The position numbers and the translations under genes are program-made. Of a stretch of DNA of 64,000 nucleotides, positions 5,803 through 15,161 are shown one piece after another. Under the pieces are notes generated by a model that saw only the letters and a program-made list of their open reading frames with translations, ran no database searches and had not been told where the DNA came from. Source of the DNA: Empedobacter tilapiae. GTDB lineage: Bacteria; Bacteroidota; Bacteroidia; Flavobacteriales; Weeksellaceae. Positions within the stretch are counted from its first letter, which is position 1, and each line of letters begins with the position of its first letter. The stretch is taken from the NCBI RefSeq assembly GCF_004785645.1, contig NZ_SRPE01000004.1, positions 124,001 through 188,000 of the forward strand, written 5' to 3'.

Positions 5803-5883
5803 ATTCGTTTCTTGTTTAATCTATTGGAAAAACTTTTATCGTATAGTGTTTTATGTTTTAAATGTGTGTTTTAGAAAAATTAC

Positions 5884-7122
5884 TTATAACTTTTCAAAAT
5901 AAGAAGATAAACTTATAATTCGCTCATAATTACTTGGATTGATATATTTCAGAAACATATGTTCACTACTATGACCTGTAGCCTCTATTAACAAAGGAGT
6001 TGGAATTTTTCCATAGAAGTTTGTCGCAAAACTTCTTCTTCCAATATGACTTGATAGCATTTCCCATTTATTAACCAGCATAGTCTTGGAACGAAAACCT
6101 AAACGTTTTCGAGCTTTTATAGTTTCATCAATATGTGCTATTTTAGCAATTTTTTTAATGCTTATATTATATTGTTGAATATCCATTTGTTTTGGAAACT
6201 GGTTTTTATTTCTTCTCAAAATATCTAAAACAATAGGATGCAAGGGTAAAATAATTTCCTTTTTTGTCTTCTGTTGGGTAAATTTAATACAAGATTTATC
6301 ACCAATTTTTATCAATTGATCGGAACTGAAATTCATAAAATCTGAAAATCGTTGCCCTACAAAACAACTGATTAATAACCAGTTTTTTGCGTCTTTTAAG
6401 TCTTTTGAAACTCTAGTCGATTTTATTTTTTTAATTTCTTTGTCATTTAAGGTAACCATTTCTCGCGATTGTTTTCCTCGGCGTATTTTAAGTTCTCTAA
6501 CATTTGTTCTGAAACCTTTTATTTCTGCAAAGTTTAGAATAGTTTTCACAAAGCAAATGGTACGATAAATTGTACTTTCACTATATTTTTCATCTTTTCC
6601 GAAAATCATAAAATCTCTCATGAAATCTGCATTAACTTGATTAATATACAGCCGTTTACAAGTAAAACCTTCAAAACGTTCTAACAATTTAAAAAAAACT
6701 TGATAGCGTTTATATGTTGAATGACAGATGCTCTCTTTTTTTAAAAAAATATAATTTTCCATCAATAACATCAATGAATTATCAGGAATTTTTGTGATTT
6801 TTTCTTTACAAATTAGTTTGATTTCTTTAGATAAAACACGCTGTTGAATATTTTTTTTAGTTGCGAGTTTTTCCTGAACATGTTCAGTGACTTGTAGTTT
6901 AATTTTATCCAACAAATTATTTATTTTCTTAAATCTCTTTAGGTAAATATTAATTGGACGTTGTTTTTCTTTGTCCCAATCATCCTCAGAAATCTGTAAT
7001 TGTGTACGAAATGTATAGGTCGTATTTTGTACAGGGTCAATTAATGAAAGATGAATGTTTTTTAGATTTCCATAATTAGGTAAGAAAAAATTAAGCATCA
7101 TTTTTGTGTTTTTAAAGCACAA
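5884..7122 (-). CDS. Tyrosine recombinase (site-specific integrase), probable DNA invertase
   Basis: 412 residues. An N-terminal Arm-type DNA-binding domain (about 10-100) and a SAM-like core-binding domain (about 115-205) precede the catalytic domain. The catalytic set is complete: Arg258 (GQRFSDF), Lys285, His359-x-x-Arg362 (SHIGRR), His384 (GHSSEH) and the nucleophile Tyr393 (LKYI). The ATG lies 14 bp from one arm of a perfect 20-bp inverted repeat (7136-7155) whose partner is at 7309-7328, the arrangement of Bacteroidota invertases that flip an adjacent promoter. No phage or conjugation genes accompany it, which argues against a simple integrated element. Inversion activity is inferred. 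Confidence 0.9.
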   Translation of the reverse strand: MCFKNTKMMLNFFLPNYGNLKNIHLSLIDPVQNTTYTFRTQLQISEDDWDKEKQRPINIYLKRFKKINNLLDKIKLQVTEHVQEKLATKKNIQQRVLSKEIKLICKEKITKIPDNSLMLLMENYIFLKKESICHSTYKRYQVFFKLLERFEGFTCKRLYINQVNADFMRDFMIFGKDEKYSESTIYRTICFVKTILNFAEIKGFRTNVRELKIRRGKQSREMVTLNDKEIKKIKSTRVSKDLKDAKNWLLISCFVGQRFSDFMNFSSDQLIKIGDKSCIKFTQQKTKKEIILPLHPIVLDILRRNKNQFPKQMDIQQYNISIKKIAKIAHIDETIKARKRLGFRSKTMLVNKWEMLSSHIGRRSFATNFYGKIPTPLLIEATGHSSEHMFLKYINPSNYERIISLSSYFEKL

Positions 7123-7135
7123 ATCTAATAAAAAA

Positions 7136-7155
7136 AGTAGTCCTATATAGACTAT
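7136..7155 (+). repeat. Left 20-bp arm of the invertible segment
   Basis: The exact reverse complement of 7309-7328. It contains a smaller dyad, TAGTC-CTATATA-GACTA, that is 5-bp arms around a 7-bp spacer, the usual layout of a tyrosine recombinase core site. Confidence 0.9.
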
Positions 7156-7189
7156 AATGAATAAAACAAATGATTGATAAATAGTGATT

Positions 7190-7197
7190 TAAGTTTG
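7190..7197 (+). promoter_or_regulatory. Possible -7 box inside the invertible segment
   Basis: TAAGTTTG matches TAnnTTTG and points toward the gene at 7358. No TTG lies at the proper -33 spacing, so the promoter call is tentative. Confidence 0.4.
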
Positions 7198-7308
7198 TTT
7201 TCAGGAAGTAATTATTGAATTGATTTTTTTTAATATTCGTTTATTAAATGAATATTTTACTATAAATCAATTTATACATTATTATATTTTAAATAAATAA
7301 AATTATAA

Positions 7309-7328
7309 ATAGTCTATATAGGACTACT
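7309..7328 (-). repeat. Right 20-bp arm of the invertible segment
   Basis: The exact reverse complement of 7136-7155, ending 29 bp before the ATG at 7358. Matching stops immediately on both sides, so the repeat is exactly 20 bp. Confidence 0.9.
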
Positions 7329-7357
7329 ATTACCAAACCATTTAAAATATCTAACCT

Positions 7358-8055
7358 ATGTTACTACATAAAATTAAAGCGTATCTCTATGATAACGTAT
7401 TAACAAAAGACAATCCCAACGATTTTATCGCGCGTACTGTGAGCGAGCGATCATTGAATGTGAAGCAGATTTGTGAAGCCGCTGTAATACGAGGTGGAGC
7501 TGATGTTTCGGCAACTGCGATGGAGCATGCAACTGAACTTTTTCTGAAAGAAATGGCATATCAATTATGCGATGGCTTTTCTGTAAATACAGGATATTTT
7601 ACTGCGGGACAGAAACTTTTAATAATCAAAAACATAATATTTTATTTCAGTTTAATCAAGGTGAGAAATTAAGAAGCCTAATCTCCACAATAGAAATTTC
7701 TATTTTAGGTGTAGCAGAAATAGGATCTGCAATTCTCCAAGTAAAAGATATAAAAAGTGGTACAATAAACGATGTTCTTACTCCAAATCGTAATCTGATA
7801 ATTAGTGGGAATAAAATAAAAATTGCAGGTAACAATCCTTCAATTGGCATTTACTTCATCAATACTGAAACTGAAGACCGAATAGTAGTAGATACGAATG
7901 ATATTGTTATCAATAACCCGTCAGAACTGATCGTGGTCATTCCAAATTTACTACCTGCTACTTATACCATAGAGGTTGTTACACAATATGCCGTAGGCAC
8001 TTTACTAAAGGAGCCTCGCACTGCAAGTTTCGACAAAATATTGAGTATTTTATAG
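7358..8055 (+). pseudogene. HU-like DNA-binding protein with DUF4469-like C-terminal domain, frameshifted
   Basis: Two overlapping frames together make one protein of the usual ~230 residues. The first (7358 to about 7606) is the HU/IHF-like half, MLLHKIKAYLYDNVL through GGADVSATAMEHATELFLKEM to GYFTAG. The second, from about 7609, continues TETFNNQKHNILFQFNQG and then VLTPNRNLIISGNKIKI to EPRTASFDKILSIL, the C-terminal Ig-like half. The switch falls at a GGG run near 7606-7608; one extra G would restore a single frame. It may be inactivated, a sequencing error, or a slipping homopolymer. It is the first gene after the invertible segment; nucleoid-type proteins of this family are widespread in Bacteroidota and of unclear role. 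Confidence 0.8.
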
Positions 8056-8057
8056 CC

Positions 8058-8091
8058 AAAAGACATTTGTCCGAACAGATAAAGGTCTTTT
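8058..8091 (+). terminator. Imperfect hairpin after the HU-like gene
   Basis: A 14-bp imperfect stem (8058-8071 / 8078-8091) just past the stop, ending in a short T run. It may end or attenuate transcription before the surface-protein genes. Confidence 0.45.
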
Positions 8092-8226
8092 ATCAATATT
8101 AACAAAGAATATTTGTCAACGTAGATAAAATATGTTTATTCGTTCTATACAAATGAATATTTTGGGTCTTGTACTTCAGATTTTTATTTAAACCAATTTA
8201 TTATTTATTATACCTAACTAACCTCC

Positions 8227-8874
8227 ATGATCAAGTGGATAAAAAAACTAAAACATGTAGGGGAAGGGAAAATTTATTTTCTCTTCCTATACTTATGTTC
8301 GCTTAATTTATCTGCACAGGTTTATGTAAAAGAAAATACTATTTTATATGGTTTTGGAGATACTATTGTTTCTAAAAATGAGATAATTCAACAAAAAAAA
8401 GAAGCCGAAAAAACACAGATTTTTATAACAAAGGGAACTACGATTGTTAATTTAGAAAAAATCTCTCATGCAGAAATCGTTTCAATTGATAATACAACAA
8501 AAGATAAAACGAAATCTTATTCAGAGGTAAAAAGAAAAATCAGTCAAAAAACATCAACAAAAGAAATTAAAACACTGAAAGTTATACAGTGGAAAAAACT
8601 TTTGTATTCGAGAAATCTAATACAAACTCTTTTTTTGGGAACTGATTCTTTACACAAAGCCTTTTTAGTTGTTAATTCCCATTGGCATACAACTATTTTA
8701 CCTTTGCTCCTAATACTTTTAATCTTCATTTTCTTGGCGAAAAAGAATTGTTTTTTATACAAGAATACTTACAACTATATTTTATTTCATTCAAAACATT
8801 CACGTGGACCACCAGAAAAAACGAAACATTTCTCTAATGTTTTAAACTTAATAATAATGCTAAACGGAGTCTAG
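8227..8874 (+). CDS. Small secreted/membrane protein of the phase-variable locus, unknown function
   Basis: 215 residues that I do not recognise as a named family. An N-terminal hydrophobic segment (about 16-30, ending LSAQ) looks like a signal peptide, giving a mature start VYVKENTILYGFGDT. A Lys/Thr-rich, coil-like middle follows, and a strong transmembrane segment (about 158-175, TTILPLLLILLIFIF) leaves a basic tail of about 35 residues containing HSRGPPEKTKH. It lies between the HU-like gene and the giant surface protein in the same direction, 86 bp before the latter, and may assist its export or anchoring. The latter is inference from position only. Confidence 0.65.
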   Translation: MIKWIKKLKHVGEGKIYFLFLYLCSLNLSAQVYVKENTILYGFGDTIVSKNEIIQQKKEAEKTQIFITKGTTIVNLEKISHAEIVSIDNTTKDKTKSYSEVKRKISQKTSTKEIKTLKVIQWKKLLYSRNLIQTLFLGTDSLHKAFLVVNSHWHTTILPLLLILLIFIFLAKKNCFLYKNTYNYILFHSKHSRGPPEKTKHFSNVLNLIIMLNGV

Positions 8875-8960
8875 TAAACTTCGTTCAGTTACAAAAAACA
8901 ATACAGATCTTAGAAAAATGAAATTTCTGAGTATGTAAATAATAACCAATAATTAAAAGA

Positions 8961-11900
8961 ATGAAAAAAATCTTTAACCTATTAGCTATATCGTTGTTAG
9001 GTATCAGTTCTTTTGCACAAACAAAGCCTGGGAACACCACCCTTGACGTAGAAGTTTGGCTAAAAGCAGATGACATTACAGTAGCAGATAAAGCAAATAT
9101 TTCTACTTGGACTGATAATTCAGGCAAAGGAAGAAACTATGTACAAAACGGATCCAATGCGGTACCTCTTTTTGACAAACAGAACTTAATGAACTTCCAA
9201 CCTTCATTGAGTTTTCCTGCATCTCCAACTAATCGAAAGTTGATATTGAATACTCCTTTTATAACAAATACGAAATCTTATTTTGTTTTCTACGTATCAA
9301 AAGTTATTAATAATACCTCAAGATCTGTCACTTATTCAATAGATGGAGATCTTGATGGTAGTGTTGGATGGAGATATCAAGACCCATTCGTTTATAGTAC
9401 AGCAACTAGTAATACTAATACTATGCGTCGTATGTATGGAATAAACACTGCTATTTTTAAGAATAAGACAGGAACAACTAATCGAAATTTAATATACCAT
9501 AATGGGGTGCCTAGTACACTTCTTAATGGAACTGCTGTTGAAGGAACTGCTAATGTTTTTGCTGGTAGTGATTTGACTCGTGCATCAGTTATAGGAAACT
9601 CTAATATAACGACTGCTTACCCTTTCGTAGGAAATATTCAGGAAATTATAGTGTTGTCATCAAATGTTACTGGTGATATGATTCATCCAGATGAATTGAG
9701 AAAGGTATCTTCCTATCTTGCTTTGAAATATGGTATTTCATTAGATAAGGAAGCTCAAAAAAACTATGTTAATTCTGATAATACGGTTGTTTGGAATGGA
9801 ACAGAAGATGTTACGTATAACAACCATAGATTTGGTATAGGGCGTGATAACGCTAGTGGTTTGTACCAAAAGCAATCTACTAGTTTTGATAAAAGTTTTG
9901 CAACTGTATTTTTAGGAGATTTAGCAATAACGAATAACGAAAATACTGATACATCACTTAATAGTGGAGATTATCTTATTTTTGGTTCTAACGGAATGAC
10001 AGGAGGAACTGTTTACGAATATAGTGAAGGTACTTCTTTTCCATTAGGAGGTACATTTACAAAAGATGTAAATAGGAGAACGCGTACAATACTGAAAGCG
10101 CAAGCGACAAAAGCATTTACTGTAAACATCCGCCCAGAGGTACGTGCAACACATGTATTAGTATCTAATGACGCTACTTTTTCTCAAGTAAATACAAAGA
10201 TATATCCGCTTGATGCTAATAATATTGCAAAAAATGTAGCGATAAACAATGGAAATTATATTAGCTATGCTTATTTCTTAACTGCTCCAGGAGGTGTTAC
10301 TGACGGGATGAGAGTATGGCTAAATGCTGATGAAACGAACTTAGATTTAGTAAACGGGAACGAAGTAAATGTATGGAATGATTTGTCTCTTTATGGAAAT
10401 GATTACTCGTACGCTGCATTAGCAGGTTCAGGAAGATTACGTCCTACTTATATTTCTTGTGATCCTTTAATGAATTTTAATCCATCTGTTAATTTTGGTA
10501 TCAATGATTATTTAGCAATTGCAAACGGACCAATGAGTACTGATGCTCCTAATGCGTTTACCTCTTTTACTGTTTATAGCGCAACAGCGTATGCAGATAG
10601 AGATAGACTTTATACTCATGGTTTTGGAGGAACTAATCCTACAACTAGTGCCACAAGATATCCTGCTATGGGATTTGCACCAGATGATCAAGTAGGTCGA
10701 TTAAGAAATGATGGTACTGGACAAACTAACAATGATGGAAATGCTAAAGGATTTAAAATAAACACTACAGCACTACAAATGATTAGCACAAAAAAAGCCA
10801 ATGGTGTTAGCGGTGCAGGTTATACTATACATGATTTTGGAGGATGGCAAGATCATGTTAATGCTACTGGAAATTTTGGAGATGGGTTTCGTATGGCACA
10901 AGGAGGTACAATTGGAGGTGCAAGTTTAAGTAATGCTTCTTTTCAAGGAAGAATGTCAGAAGTTTTCTTCTATGAGAGAGAGCTTACACTAGTCGAACAA
11001 AATGCTATTCGTTCTTATCTAGGAATGAAATATGCTATCACATTAGATGCCGATGGAGCAAGTACAACAGTAAATTACGATTATATTTTATCAGATAATC
11101 TAACCAAAGTATGGGCAGGTAATAGTGTACCAAACAATAAATACCATAACAATGTAGCTGGATTGGTACGAGACGATGTTCAGAATCTGAATATTCGCCG
11201 AGCAAAATCTACAGCTAAGGGAGCTTCAATTACTTTACTTACCAAAGGAACAGAAACATGTGGTGTAAATGGTGAAGAATTTGACAATCGAAATGGGATT
11301 TTTGTAGGACATAATAACGGAAGTGTAGATTATAAAGAGAAAGCTGCTGCTGAAAGTTCTTGCGGTTCAATAGAGCATTCTTTGACAATGACAAATGGTG
11401 GAGAAGGTCGTATTTGGTTAGCACAAAACTCGTCAGAGGGAAATGTAATACCAACTTCTAAAAGCATTACTATAAGAGCTGGAGGAGAGATCTTTCCATT
11501 TGATGGTGCTAGTTTTGAAGTGTATCTTATGATATCGAATAATGAAGCTGATTTGAAAAATAGTAATTGGGAGAACATCCAAACAGTACCTATGACATAT
11601 GTAGACGGAGAACATGAAGTAAACTATATATTTACGAAAGAGTATACATATTTTACGTTTGGAGCGAAATCGGTTATGGGAGATTGTGATAGATGTGAAT
11701 TTGGAGGTATCAAAACATTAGATTTCCCAAGAAATAATTGGGATAGAGGTCAAAAAGAGCGAACTTTCGATCTTGATGATAATTTCTTTGTAGATGTAAA
11801 AGTGGAGGATTATAACCTAATGTCTAGAAATTATCCAAGACCCTATGTTCAAAAAACTTTACGAGAAAGAAGAAAAGGAACAGATAATGTTACAACAACT

Positions 11901-13544
11901 TTTAACTTCTATAATAATGTAGTAACAGAAGGCCCAAATGATACTGAAATAATTGAGAAATCTCCAATAAGCTCAACGGTTAATTTTCAACTTTATCATG
12001 TAGACAGGCAACATTATAATTATAAACAGCTTCAAGTAGTTGGTTATTGTGACGGAGCAAGAGTGTATCCTAAGATGACTTATATAGAAGAACGTCGCCC
12101 AGAGAGAAGTAAATATAACATCATAGGTCAAGGTAAAGCATATGCCAAAAAGAGAGGAGAAAGATACAGTGGTTCTACTGGTTATACAAACAAATATGGA
12201 CGAGTTTTCGTAGAATTTGAATCACCTGTTTCAAAAATTGAGATTATCAATACAATAGAAAAGGATGTTTCAGACCCACTTAGTCATATAACAGATTTTG
12301 GTATTGGACCAATGGAGTTTTATTGTCCAGCACCACTCCCAGCACCAAATGAAGAAGGATTGATTTTCGTAAAACAAGGAACACCAGAAGTGTTACTTTG
12401 TGAGGAAGTAGATTATTCATTCCGTATCATCAATACAAATTGTGATGAAAAAGAAATGACATTCACAGATGAACTACCTATGGGAATGATATGGGTGAAT
12501 AATTCTGTAGGTACAGAATTAGAATCTGGATCAATTAATGGCTACGGTACTCGCAAATTAACAATTGATAACTTGAAAGTTCCTGGAGGTGGAGCAACAC
12601 ATGTTATTCGTGCAAAAGCTATTTTTGAACAGAATGCTACAGCTGGAGCGTACACCAATAGAGCTAATATAGTATACACAAATAGAATAACGGGAGCTAC
12701 TGAAAGTTTATATAGTACAGATCGCTTAACAGGTGAGGAAGAAACTATTACAAATGCGCTTAACTCTGATCGCCCAGAACAAATTATAGCAACTATCGAA
12801 ACAGATAAAAGCTGTTATAATGTAAATGGTGAAATTGAAGTTAAAGTAATTCTTTCCAACCCTAATGGAGATATAATTAATAGCGCTTATTTAAACTTGG
12901 ATTTTGATGTTGATATCTTTAAACTGAAATACGGTAAAGACAAAAATTATGGTATCGAGACAAATATCCCCGGTTTATTAGATAAGCTTATAGACGATGT
13001 AAATGATCCTGATTATGAACCAATAAATGAAACTGGAAGTATCGAATTTGAAGGTTTTACACTAAAAAATGATCAAGAGTATTGGATAACATATACTGTA
13101 AAATCATCTGACAATGAAGCAGATTATAACAATATAGATCCTAATACGTTCGCGCCAGAAGATGTGTCGTTTGGTTTTGACTTCTTTATTGATTCAGATG
13201 ATGTTTGTACAGCTTCTTCTGCAGCCAATGCAAGTGGAACTATAGATTTATCTTTCTGTACTTTCTGTACAGAATTACCTACAGGAGGAAAACCTACTCC
13301 ATCAAATGTTGGTATTTCTGCATTTAAAGATCAAATAGAAGGATGGCCACAAAACGTAGCAAACGGTTACTTGGTACTTGAATCAGGTAAAAAAGGAATG
13401 ATTCTATCTAGAACTACACCAGAAGCTATTGGTGAAGCAAACTGGAAAGAAGGTATGATTATATACAATACAGACCTTAAGTGTATCAATATCTATGACG
13501 GTACGGAATGGAAATGTATCCAACGTTCTTGTAACAAAAATTAG
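8961..13544 (+). CDS. Giant secreted surface protein with LamG-like, DUF8202-like and DUF11-like modules
   Basis: 1527 residues. A signal peptide (ending SSFAQ, about residue 19) precedes two tandem units, each a LamG/concanavalin-like domain starting with EVWLKADD (about 30) or GMRVWLNADET (about 450), followed by a segment with LALKYGISLD or LGMKYAITLD, as in DUF8202. A Cys- and charge-rich region (about 905-1130) follows, then a DUF11-like repeat (about 1140-1275) and an Ig/cohesin-like domain (about 1280-1430). The C-terminus, GMIIYNTDLKCINIYDGTEW, is a motif common at the end of flavobacterial surface proteins and is not a canonical T9SS domain. A probable adhesin whose expression would be switched by the invertible promoter 1.6 kb upstream. 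Confidence 0.85.
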   Translation: MKKIFNLLAISLLGISSFAQTKPGNTTLDVEVWLKADDITVADKANISTWTDNSGKGRNYVQNGSNAVPLFDKQNLMNFQPSLSFPASPTNRKLILNTPFITNTKSYFVFYVSKVINNTSRSVTYSIDGDLDGSVGWRYQDPFVYSTATSNTNTMRRMYGINTAIFKNKTGTTNRNLIYHNGVPSTLLNGTAVEGTANVFAGSDLTRASVIGNSNITTAYPFVGNIQEIIVLSSNVTGDMIHPDELRKVSSYLALKYGISLDKEAQKNYVNSDNTVVWNGTEDVTYNNHRFGIGRDNASGLYQKQSTSFDKSFATVFLGDLAITNNENTDTSLNSGDYLIFGSNGMTGGTVYEYSEGTSFPLGGTFTKDVNRRTRTILKAQATKAFTVNIRPEVRATHVLVSNDATFSQVNTKIYPLDANNIAKNVAINNGNYISYAYFLTAPGGVTDGMRVWLNADETNLDLVNGNEVNVWNDLSLYGNDYSYAALAGSGRLRPTYISCDPLMNFNPSVNFGINDYLAIANGPMSTDAPNAFTSFTVYSATAYADRDRLYTHGFGGTNPTTSATRYPAMGFAPDDQVGRLRNDGTGQTNNDGNAKGFKINTTALQMISTKKANGVSGAGYTIHDFGGWQDHVNATGNFGDGFRMAQGGTIGGASLSNASFQGRMSEVFFYERELTLVEQNAIRSYLGMKYAITLDADGASTTVNYDYILSDNLTKVWAGNSVPNNKYHNNVAGLVRDDVQNLNIRRAKSTAKGASITLLTKGTETCGVNGEEFDNRNGIFVGHNNGSVDYKEKAAAESSCGSIEHSLTMTNGGEGRIWLAQNSSEGNVIPTSKSITIRAGGEIFPFDGASFEVYLMISNNEADLKNSNWENIQTVPMTYVDGEHEVNYIFTKEYTYFTFGAKSVMGDCDRCEFGGIKTLDFPRNNWDRGQKERTFDLDDNFFVDVKVEDYNLMSRNYPRPYVQKTLRERRKGTDNVTTTFNFYNNVVTEGPNDTEIIEKSPISSTVNFQLYHVDRQHYNYKQLQVVGYCDGARVYPKMTYIEERRPERSKYNIIGQGKAYAKKRGERYSGSTGYTNKYGRVFVEFESPVSKIEIINTIEKDVSDPLSHITDFGIGPMEFYCPAPLPAPNEEGLIFVKQGTPEVLLCEEVDYSFRIINTNCDEKEMTFTDELPMGMIWVNNSVGTELESGSINGYGTRKLTIDNLKVPGGGATHVIRAKAIFEQNATAGAYTNRANIVYTNRITGATESLYSTDRLTGEEETITNALNSDRPEQIIATIETDKSCYNVNGEIEVKVILSNPNGDIINSAYLNLDFDVDIFKLKYGKDKNYGIETNIPGLLDKLIDDVNDPDYEPINETGSIEFEGFTLKNDQEYWITYTVKSSDNEADYNNIDPNTFAPEDVSFGFDFFIDSDDVCTASSAANASGTIDLSFCTFCTELPTGGKPTPSNVGISAFKDQIEGWPQNVANGYLVLESGKKGMILSRTTPEAIGEANWKEGMIIYNTDLKCINIYDGTEWKCIQRSCNKN

Positions 13545-13560
13545 AAGAACAAAAAGTTAA

Positions 13561-13585
13561 ACTTACCAGAGTAATTCTGGTAGGT
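13561..13585 (+). terminator. Intercistronic hairpin (terminator or attenuator)
   Basis: A 10-bp stem with one wobble (13561-13570 / 13576-13585) followed by a short T run, between the giant surface gene and the 194-residue partner. It overlaps the spacer before the upstream in-frame ATG at 13591, a further reason to prefer the start at 13615. Confidence 0.5.
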
Positions 13586-13614
13586 TTTATATGTCACACA
13601 AAAACAGTAACAAT

Positions 13615-14199
13615 ATGAAAAAAATAATCATAACATTTATTTTGCTTATTTCATCACAAGCTTTTTCTCAAGTCTCTATTGGTAAAAGCGAGGTTGAAAA
13701 AGGTGGATTATTGGATTTCGGGAATGATAATCTCGGAATTATTCTTCCCGCAGTAAAAGAATTACCAAAAAATCCAACGAGTGGAACCTTTCTTTTTGAT
13801 ACCGAAGACAAGAAGGTGAAAGTATATTATGAATATACTAATCAAAATAATGAAGAAAAAGAAGAATGGTTAGAGCTAAGTGATGAAGGTTCTTTGGAGA
13901 TACAACAAGGAAAAAATGGAGCAGGAGAAAACATTGACGTAACGACTAAAAGAGTTTTAAATACAACTGTTGAAGAAGGAGACGGTGTAATCATTGGCGA
14001 TATCGATGCAAATGGCAACGCTCCATCAGGAGCAACTGGAATCTTGGTATTAGAAGCTATAGATAAAGCATTGATCTTACCAAAAATAGAAGATCCACAT
14101 CTGACTATAAAATCACCAACAGCTGGTACAATGGTTTTCGATACAAAAAGCAAATCTTTAGCTGTATTTGATGGAAAAGTTTGGAATTATTGGAAATAA
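13615..14199 (+). CDS. Secreted partner of the surface protein, unknown function
   Basis: 194 residues from the ATG at 13615, chosen because the signal peptide begins there (MKKIIITFILLISSQAFSQ); an in-frame ATG at 13591 would add eight polar residues in front. The mature protein has two copies of a short module, PTSGTFLFDTEDKKVKVYY (about 65) and PTAGTMVFDTKSKSLAVFDG (near the C-terminus), each after a LPAVKELP- or LPKIEDP-like stretch. The same module closes the adjacent 1527-residue protein. This suggests a shared surface-assembly or fibre-type fold. No enzyme motif is visible; a function with the large protein is inferred from sequence echo and adjacency. Confidence 0.7.
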   Translation: MKKIIITFILLISSQAFSQVSIGKSEVEKGGLLDFGNDNLGIILPAVKELPKNPTSGTFLFDTEDKKVKVYYEYTNQNNEEKEEWLELSDEGSLEIQQGKNGAGENIDVTTKRVLNTTVEEGDGVIIGDIDANGNAPSGATGILVLEAIDKALILPKIEDPHLTIKSPTAGTMVFDTKSKSLAVFDGKVWNYWK

Positions 14200-14253
14200 T
14201 ATTATAACGTTAGTTTTCTAAAAAAATATTAAAAATCTTAATTAATCAACCTG

Positions 14254-14289
14254 TTACAAAAGCGGGATAGAAATATCCCGTATTTGTAA
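14254..14289 (+). other. Stable hairpin with GAAA loop upstream of HTH gene
   Basis: A 16-bp stem with two mismatches (14254-14269 / 14274-14289) closed by a GAAA tetraloop, 25 bp before the ATG at 14314. No T run follows, so it looks more like a leader structure or mRNA-processing/stability element than a terminator. Confidence 0.5.
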
Positions 14290-14313
14290 TAAACTAGATC
14301 TAACCTAAATATT

Positions 14314-14748
14314 ATGAATTTCAAAAAAATCCATATTGGAACATTAATTAAACAATTGATTACAGAAAAAGAAATTGATAATCTTAGAATTTGTAATTTC
14401 TTAAAATGTACAGAAAAAGAAATTGATAAAATGTATCAAATGAAAAGTTTAGATGCAGAAATTTTATTAAAATGGAGTAAACTTTTGGAGTACGACTTTT
14501 TTCGTCTCTATTCGCAGCATTTGATTCTCTATGCTCCACTAAGTAGTAATAATTATAATGTAAAGAACGAGAATACTAACCAATCGTTACTACCGCGTTT
14601 TCGTAAAAATATATATACGAGAGAAGTGATTGATTATATTCTGAATAAAATTGAGAAAGGAGAGATGAAAAAATCAGAAGTAATAGAACGATATAAAATC
14701 CCTAAAACAACCTTATACAAGTGGATTAGTAAATATAAAACGAAATAA
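14314..14748 (+). CDS. Helix-turn-helix protein, putative regulator
   Basis: 144 residues. The N-terminal ~75 residues (IGTLIKQLITEKEIDNLRICNF and a second helix pair) resemble a degenerate XRE-like domain. A basic linker (LLPRFRKN) leads to a C-terminal HTH of the Tnp/Psq type at about 105-144, SEVIERYKIPKTTLYKWISK. It has no transposase catalytic domain. It is followed 30 bp later by a second, shorter HTH gene with a similar C-terminal helix pair. Its place at the end of the surface-protein cluster suggests a regulator of the locus; target sites are unknown. Confidence 0.6.
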   Translation: MNFKKIHIGTLIKQLITEKEIDNLRICNFLKCTEKEIDKMYQMKSLDAEILLKWSKLLEYDFFRLYSQHLILYAPLSSNNYNVKNENTNQSLLPRFRKNIYTREVIDYILNKIEKGEMKKSEVIERYKIPKTTLYKWISKYKTK

Positions 14749-14778
14749 ACAATAGCTACTGATTAAAACTAAAATTAA

Positions 14779-15099
14779 ATGATACAAAAAATAGATTATA
14801 AAACACTTTACACAGATATTTTGATCGAATTATATCCTGAAAGACTACCGTTTTGCCAAGAAATAATGAATAAGAAGATATTGTCTGTTCTAGATATACT
14901 TGAATTGAACAGATTAGTTTTTGGTGAACAACATTATAAAAATAAAGCACTTAATCAGAAATTTAAATCTTATTCAGAACAAGATATTCTACTTATTTTG
15001 GATTATCAAAAAAAGCATAAATTAAATGATTCTCAATTAGCGAATCATTTTAAATTAAGTCGAAATACGGTAGCAAAATGGAAAAAAATATATTTATAA
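14779..15099 (+). CDS. Small helix-turn-helix protein, putative regulator
   Basis: 106 residues. The C-terminal HTH is LNDSQLANHFKLSRNTVAKW (about 84-103). The front half (ERLPFCQEIMNKKILSVLDILELNRLV) is predicted helical and may mediate dimerisation. It echoes the preceding gene (SEVIERYKIPKTTLYKW against NDSQLANHFKLSRNTVAKW), so the two may be distant paralogues. Probably co-transcribed with it (30 bp spacing), and the last gene before the bidirectional terminator that closes the accessory locus. Confidence 0.6.
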   Translation: MIQKIDYKTLYTDILIELYPERLPFCQEIMNKKILSVLDILELNRLVFGEQHYKNKALNQKFKSYSEQDILLILDYQKKHKLNDSQLANHFKLSRNTVAKWKKIYL

Positions 15100-15142
15100 A
15101 AAAAGAGCCTTATATATTATTGAGATATGTAAGGCTCTTTTT
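15100..15142. terminator. Bidirectional terminator closing the accessory locus
   Basis: A 13-bp stem (15100-15112 / 15130-15142) flanked by A and T runs, starting directly after the stop codon at 15099 and facing the convergent S46 gene. Confidence 0.8.
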
Positions 15143-15161
15143 ATATTGCTAAAAACTTTTA

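Follow-up and report, generated by a model that had tools for sequence, protein, structure and literature searches.

Does the short inverted repeat beside a tyrosine recombinase gene of Empedobacter tilapiae enclose a promoter whose inversion switches the neighboring gene cluster on or off? This was the original prediction for the locus, which lies in the 64,000-nucleotide stretch of DNA analyzed here (hereafter, the window).

Gene content of the locus

The predicted perfect 20-bp inverted repeat around about 153 bp was recovered exactly, with arms at 7136–7155 and 7309–7328 and 153 bp between them; if one mismatch is allowed, the arms are 23 bp long. When the window was simulated 100 times with a first-order Markov model, the longest perfect inverted repeat within 500 bp was 17 bp, and none reached 20 bp. 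Near-identical inverted sites around a short intergenic segment, one of the features by which family membership was judged, are present at this locus. The recombinase gene is complete, as had been stated, and the cluster with a 1527-residue protein and HTH genes is also present. The distance between the recombinase gene start and the nearer arm is 34 bp, not 14 bp, as the conserved start is the ATG at 7101 and not the TTG at 7122. The first gene to the right of the repeat, a split HU/DUF4469 gene, had escaped the prediction. The features are as follows; the named loci are the recombinase loci sampled in the next section.

5884–7101, minus strand: tyrosine recombinase of 405 aa, intact, with a PF13102 match
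7103–7123, minus strand: inverted repeat in the recombinase leader (TTTGTG/CACAAA); its left arm shares bases with the −7-like box, and its right arm stops 1 nt away from the ATG
7120–7127, minus strand: TAGATTTG, a −7-like box that precedes the recombinase and lies outside the segment, with a counterpart 10–12 nt past the site in 33 of the 65 named loci
7136–7155, plus strand: putative left recombination site, a perfect repeat; 17-bp core TAGTC-CTATATA-GACTA at 7138–7154, the core pattern occurring in nine pairs in the genome
7156–7157, minus strand: approximate junction of an apparent 24-column deletion, placed by the sister alignment, where homologues hold a −7 box
7156–7308, no strand: the 153 bp enclosed by the 20-bp arms, presumed to be invertible; alignment, pairwise scores and promoter matrix show homology, in the common orientation, with sister segments, whose promoter it lacks
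7167–7170, minus strand: −33 element remnant, TTTG on the minus strand (CAAA on the plus strand), from the sister alignment and the sequence
7309–7328, minus strand: putative right recombination site, an inverted copy with core at 7310–7326 and an identical spacer
7358–8055, plus strand: HU-DNA_bdg/DUF4469 gene split by a frameshift (7358–7672 and 7567–8055), with PF14848 and PF14734 in two frames
8227–8874, plus strand: 215-aa protein with phmmer relatives in operons behind other switches (5 of the 65 named loci, plus C1, C9 and G004)
8961–13544, plus strand: 1527-aa protein with a signal-peptide-like N-terminus (by eye) and only weak, below-cut-off Ig-like matches
13591–14199, plus strand: 202-aa protein, secreted-looking by eye
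14314–14748, plus strand: 144-aa HTH-like protein with relatives in 25 of the 65 named loci
14779–15099, plus strand: 106-aa HTH-like protein with relatives in 23 of the 65 named loci, always alongside the 144-aa one

Six residues of the recombinase, R251, K278, H352, R355, H377 and Y386, are invariant in 26 aligned recombinase sequences; we take them to be the catalytic positions, and the R-K-H-R-H-Y set is complete. PDB sequence searches with the recombinase and with the 1527-residue protein gave no match. Among eight window proteins compared with NCBIfam, only the recombinase and a neighboring 244-residue protein matched, both below the cut-off: the former weakly to XerC/XerD and far below it, the latter with 15 weak matches, the best being YtnP lactonase. 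A search of plasmids for DNA similarity to 5884–7672 found no match.

In the operon, the first piece of the split gene is the only above-cut-off PF14848 match in the window genome. Signal-peptide-like N-termini, read by eye only, begin the proteins at 8227, 8961 and 13591, and domain searches of the operon proteins found no surface-anchor domain. Relatives of the 144-residue HTH-like protein are numerous, with 16 matches in the window genome and eight in congener G003, a genome without an exact site; the HTH-like pair (14314–15099) perhaps serves feedback or cross-locus control. On the evidence of gene order, positions from about 5810 to 15160 form an accessory island: five of 13 congeners (G003, G007, G009, G010 and G013) have the two flanking genes about 100 bp apart with nothing between them. 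In G002 (Empedobacter brevis), another gene lies between the two, and seven of the 13 congeners are uninformative in this comparison because the genes are not neighbors in the assembly or one was not clearly found. No target duplication was recognized by eye at the island.

Paired sites in the genus and beyond

With the spacer left free, the core TAGTC-N7-GACTA has 18 exact matches in the window genome (3.71 Mb, 27 contigs), against eight for a reversed-pattern control. These 18 matches form exactly nine inverted pairs, 158–199 bp from start to start, and in 9 of 9 the 7-bp spacer is identical between the two arms. The same free search in E. brevis gave 13 matches, forming six pairs, all six with identical spacers, and one lone site. 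Altogether, seven of 14 genomes of the genus, the window genome included, contain core matches (controls in those seven, 0 to 8). G009 has two matches that form one pair, and G004 has two that form one pair with unlike spacers; G005, G006 and G007, with one, three and one core matches, respectively, yielded no exact pair.

Four of the nine pairs in the window genome (C2b, C6, C15a and C15b) have no directly adjoining recombinase. Some spacers recur there: CTTCCTA is common to three pairs (contigs C2, C9 and C13) and CTAGTTA to three (C2, C6 and C15), and such common spacers could permit recombination between loci. Several contigs of this genome have recombinase genes cut by contig ends.

To cover other genera, loci were named from a recombinase-alignment scan with one genome per species, of which the best 80 of 240 loci were kept; only sites upstream of the recombinase were sought. 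Three loci with a missing gene start (L080, L099 and L104) were left out, leaving 77. A repeat pair lies upstream of the recombinase in 65 of these 77, a count reached both by a motif-free repeat finder and by the site rule. The 12 loci in which no pair was found are L124–L129, which are distant (33–41% identity), L088 and L109, which lie at contig ends with under 250 bp upstream, and L051, L113, L115 and L118. Together with 11 further pairs (nine from the window genome, one from G002 and one from G004), the 65 pairs of the named loci make a set of 76, drawn from related loci, so that counts across loci are not independent.

Within this set, the spacers are alike in both arms in 74 of the 76 pairs (the exceptions being L085 and G004), with 42 distinct spacers, and all 76 pairs have the same GTC and GAC in the far-side site. 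In the named loci, 64 of 65 pairs have matching spacers, compared with 3.06 on shuffling (maximum 9). Since these pairs were picked by arm matching and a site motif, spacer identity and the invariant GTC/GAC are partly built in, and the free searches (9 of 9 and 6 of 6) are the cleaner evidence. Strand exchange by tyrosine recombinases requires matching spacers between partners, and spacers that match within a pair and vary between loci fit this rule. From these comparisons, the repeat pair of the window is best read as a pair of recombination sites and truly belongs to a family of recombinase-linked segments that extends over many loci and several genera. The family spans Empedobacter, Chryseobacterium, Elizabethkingia, Sphingobacterium and relatives, and offers a defined, searchable recombination site with matched spacers together with its enzyme family. 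In the literature searched, no title or opening of an abstract describes a TAGTC-N7-GACTA site family; published repeat motifs sit in supplements, and we do not claim that the site sequence is new.

Promoter orientation and apparent promoter loss in the window copy

Many of the segments hold TTTG-N19-TAnnTTTG, which ends about 22–30 bp from one outer edge and corresponds to the Bacteroidota promoter consensus given in PMC6847099; the −7 box also appears in PMC9723704. A plain search in both directions placed TAnnTTTG 14–34 bp from an edge in 65 of the 76 segments, namely facing the recombinase side in 61 and the operon side in four, leaving 11 with neither; shuffled segments have the box at that place in 2.3% per direction. 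The 61 recombinase-facing boxes comprise 53 of the 65 named loci and eight of the 11 other pairs, five of the eight having no directly adjacent recombinase. A promoter matrix, which was trained on recombinase-facing sites and leans that way, by itself assigned 39 of the 65 named loci to the recombinase side and two to the operon side, with 24 undecided.

The four operon-facing boxes belong to Chryseobacterium luteum (L059), Mesonia hippocampi (L064), a Flavobacteriaceae MAG (L123) and G004. The C. luteum segment aligns better inverted than directly to L058 (66.4 vs. 30.1) and L065 (60.3 vs. 31.5), and its minus-strand BLAST matches, down to 1e-11, comprise two blocks with L058 and one with L065. 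When each segment was compared with 75 partners and differences of more than 10 points were counted, inverted alignment was better than direct in 17 against 3 for L059, 32 against 2 for L123, 17 against 4 for L064 and 5 against 1 for G004. The original prediction had proposed a comparison of orientation in related genomes: related segments occur in both orientations across species, which supports segment inversion, by comparison, at the family level only. In the G004 segment (L044, 8766–8904), the box points toward the operon and the spacers differ between the arms; this segment is possibly locked ON.

Flipping may be rare, because all 13 promoter-bearing pairs of the window genome and E. brevis face away from the operon, with no operon-facing promoter among them, and no flip was found among nine loci of Sphingobacterium that have a spacer in common (L089, L091, L092, L094, L096, L097, L100, L102 and L103).

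The window segment is one of the 11 without TAnnTTTG near an edge. In an alignment with seven sister segments, it has a gap of 24 columns immediately inward of the left site, where six of the seven carry their −7 box; in the remaining one, C13, about 40 are missing. With the matrix, the window segment scores at best 0.7 in the direction of the recombinase and −2.5 in that of the operon, with the 95th and 99th percentiles of shuffles at 8.5 and 12.3. Toward the recombinase side, nine of the ten other segments of the window genome and E. brevis score 12.0 to 26.3; seven other pairs of the window genome reach 12.0, 12.0, 13.9, 22.7, 24.0, 24.9 and 24.9, and C13 reaches −3.4. In the congeners, the corresponding values are 21.2 for G009, 9.9 for G005 and −6.2 for G004, the last with 5.1 toward the operon. 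The window segment aligns with its nearest sisters, C2a (51.6 vs. 27.4) and C13 (46.9 vs. 22.0), better in the common orientation than inverted; among 75 partners, 13 favored direct alignment by more than 10 points and seven favored inverted alignment.

Lacking a family-like promoter inside the segment, which is one of the defining features, the window copy is filed, on its sequence, as a member of the element family and not as a working switch. It seems to have lost its promoter, and a flip probably changes nothing now. The proposal of an invertible promoter therefore holds in part: an invertible element beside its own recombinase is borne out by the family and the sites, but the −7 box is absent from this copy. 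That a flip would turn the cluster on or off finds no support here, given the 24-column gap and the matrix scores. The C13 segment (L038, 9203–9855) is a second promoterless one, with a gap of about 40 bp at the corresponding position, an intact recombinase beside it and then an ORF with a broken beginning. Both of these recombinase-linked copies look retired with intact recombinase genes, because the promoter box is missing and the first ORF is broken in each.

We consider it likely that the repeats are crossover sites of a multi-copy tyrosine-recombinase switch and that the window copy flips silently after losing its promoter. In such a switch, each site would consist of two 5-bp arms (TAGTC and GACTA) flanking a locus-specific spacer of 7 bp, which has to be the same in the two partners, and an intact segment would carry a single Bacteroidota promoter some 25 bp from one of its edges. 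Inversion would aim this promoter either at the recombinase side, the usual state in the assemblies, with the surface operon OFF, or at the surface operon (ON). The window copy would have kept its recombinase and sites, lost the promoter −7 box and suffered a break in the first operon gene; its segment could probably still flip, silently, and the cluster would be off or driven by some other promoter. The recombinase, still intact, may serve other copies in trans. We infer all four of these steps: catalysis, inversion of the window segment, silence of the window copy and action in trans.

The promoter loss and the broken first gene would also suit a fossil segment that no longer inverts, in which selection keeps only the recombinase for its action in trans on sister copies. 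The similar state of C13 and the existence of four stand-alone site pairs fit this account, but the arms are still identical over 20 bp, which would be surprising in a switch that died long ago, and we regard this account as unlikely. It is distinctly improbable that the window switch is instead fully functional, with a non-canonical promoter driving the cluster in one direction. The recombinase and the 20-bp arms are intact, as this would require, and the sole TAnnTTTG in the segment, TAAGTTTG at 7190–7197, faces the operon; a hybrid promoter with its −7 box in the site is another candidate. However, no TTG was found 17–20 bp upstream of TAAGTTTG, sister segments have no similar box at that place, and the best matrix scores are the 0.7 and −2.5 reported above. 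Moreover, the Flavobacterium johnsoniae promoters described in PMC6847099 hardly ever have G at −10 or −9. Finally, an operator or transcription terminator, for which the intergenic place between divergent genes would be suitable, is scarcely credible in view of the same core in nine pairs, spacers that are alike within and different between loci, and related segments in both orientations.

The recombinase leader and comparison with known switches

The original prediction had also suggested that the segment might control the recombinase in the opposite sense. The direction of the box in 61 of the 76 segments agrees with this, but a −7-like box and a hairpin at the start codon both lie outside the segment, which suggests that the recombinase has its own promoter there. 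Such a TAnnTT[T/C]G box is found in 33 of the 65 named loci, in all of them at 10–12 nt although 45 nt were searched, in a comparison made without a shuffle control; it is absent from the other 32. Because of this box, the idea that the recombinase depends on the switch promoter alone was rejected.

An inverted repeat links the −7-like box to the start codon, and its arms vary between loci yet stay complementary. The mean complementarity score is 6.30, compared with 4.47 (SD 0.23, maximum 5.09) in 200 arm swaps, for the 54 of 68 leaders that measure 30–62 nt. Stems of at least 6 bp occur in 23 of these 54 (arm swaps average 11.8, maximum 20), with 20 distinct left arms, and are absent from 31, among them E. 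brevis (L050) and C13, for which the arm-swap test found no stem. Folding of 55 of 69 leaders, one of which (G002) repeats L050, gave a mean z of −1.4 against mononucleotide shuffles, with 26 below −1.5. A single conserved operator was rejected as an explanation of the repeat, as the arms differ among loci but remain complementary. In the 13 leaders that have both the box and a stem of at least 6 bp, the left arm ends −5 to +2 from the predicted transcription start, at or before it in eight, and in 12 of the 13, the right arm ends 0–2 nt from the ATG. Because the left arm ends near the predicted start, RNA from the private promoter would lack most of this arm, and transcripts that read through from the switch promoter would form a fold over the recombinase start. 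The covarying hairpin may thereby insulate the recombinase from the switch promoter.

Taken together, these features allow a broader picture, which we hold only tentatively and consider doubtful in its entirety: a module present across several Bacteroidota families, with a promoter that normally faces its own recombinase and with a private promoter and a hairpin formed fully only on read-through as insulation. Spacers would work as addresses, letting a small number of recombinases serve many cassettes in trans, and cassettes such as that of the window would be retired by deletion of the promoter beside the site with the enzyme gene kept.

By analogy, the element may work like the invertible promoters of Bacteroides. 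Tsr19 is a tyrosine recombinase near a local invertible promoter that also acts on a distant one; the local promoter is described as mostly OFF in culture (PMC4747536) and as OFF in three genome sequences (PMC3090145). The likeness, drawn from description and not from site alignment, lies in the recombinase beside a local switch and in the OFF bias; the downstream genes are different, and the window copy has no detectable promoter. Another comparison is with Mpi of Bacteroides fragilis, which is a serine recombinase. According to PMC4747536, this one enzyme inverts many capsule promoters, whereas the present family has a tyrosine recombinase and mostly locus-specific spacers. Inversion in Flavobacteriia is not new, since its signatures are reported in the reads of one of five samples in PMC5903667.

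The leader hairpin has parallels in transposable elements. The transposase genes of IS10 and IS50 are protected from impinging transcription. In IS200, a hairpin over the transposase start is described as shielding it from such transcription (PMC3196728). The likeness is a hairpin over the start of a recombination gene; the present gene differs in encoding a presumed invertase, and its hairpin is predicted.

The gut Bacteroidota invertons of PhaseFinder surveys, as described in PMC11892184, have short inverted repeats, a Bacteroidota promoter motif in the segment, surface genes and an invertase nearby; the present family shares the repeats, the motif and the nearby invertase, and its adjacent genes may likewise be of the surface type. 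The same source describes invertases near invertons as generally not regulatable by the inverton promoters. In contrast, the geometry here is the opposite, as in 53 of the 65 named loci the −7 box is directed at the recombinase. The family makes it testable how a recombinase beside its own invertible promoter escapes being switched along with it.
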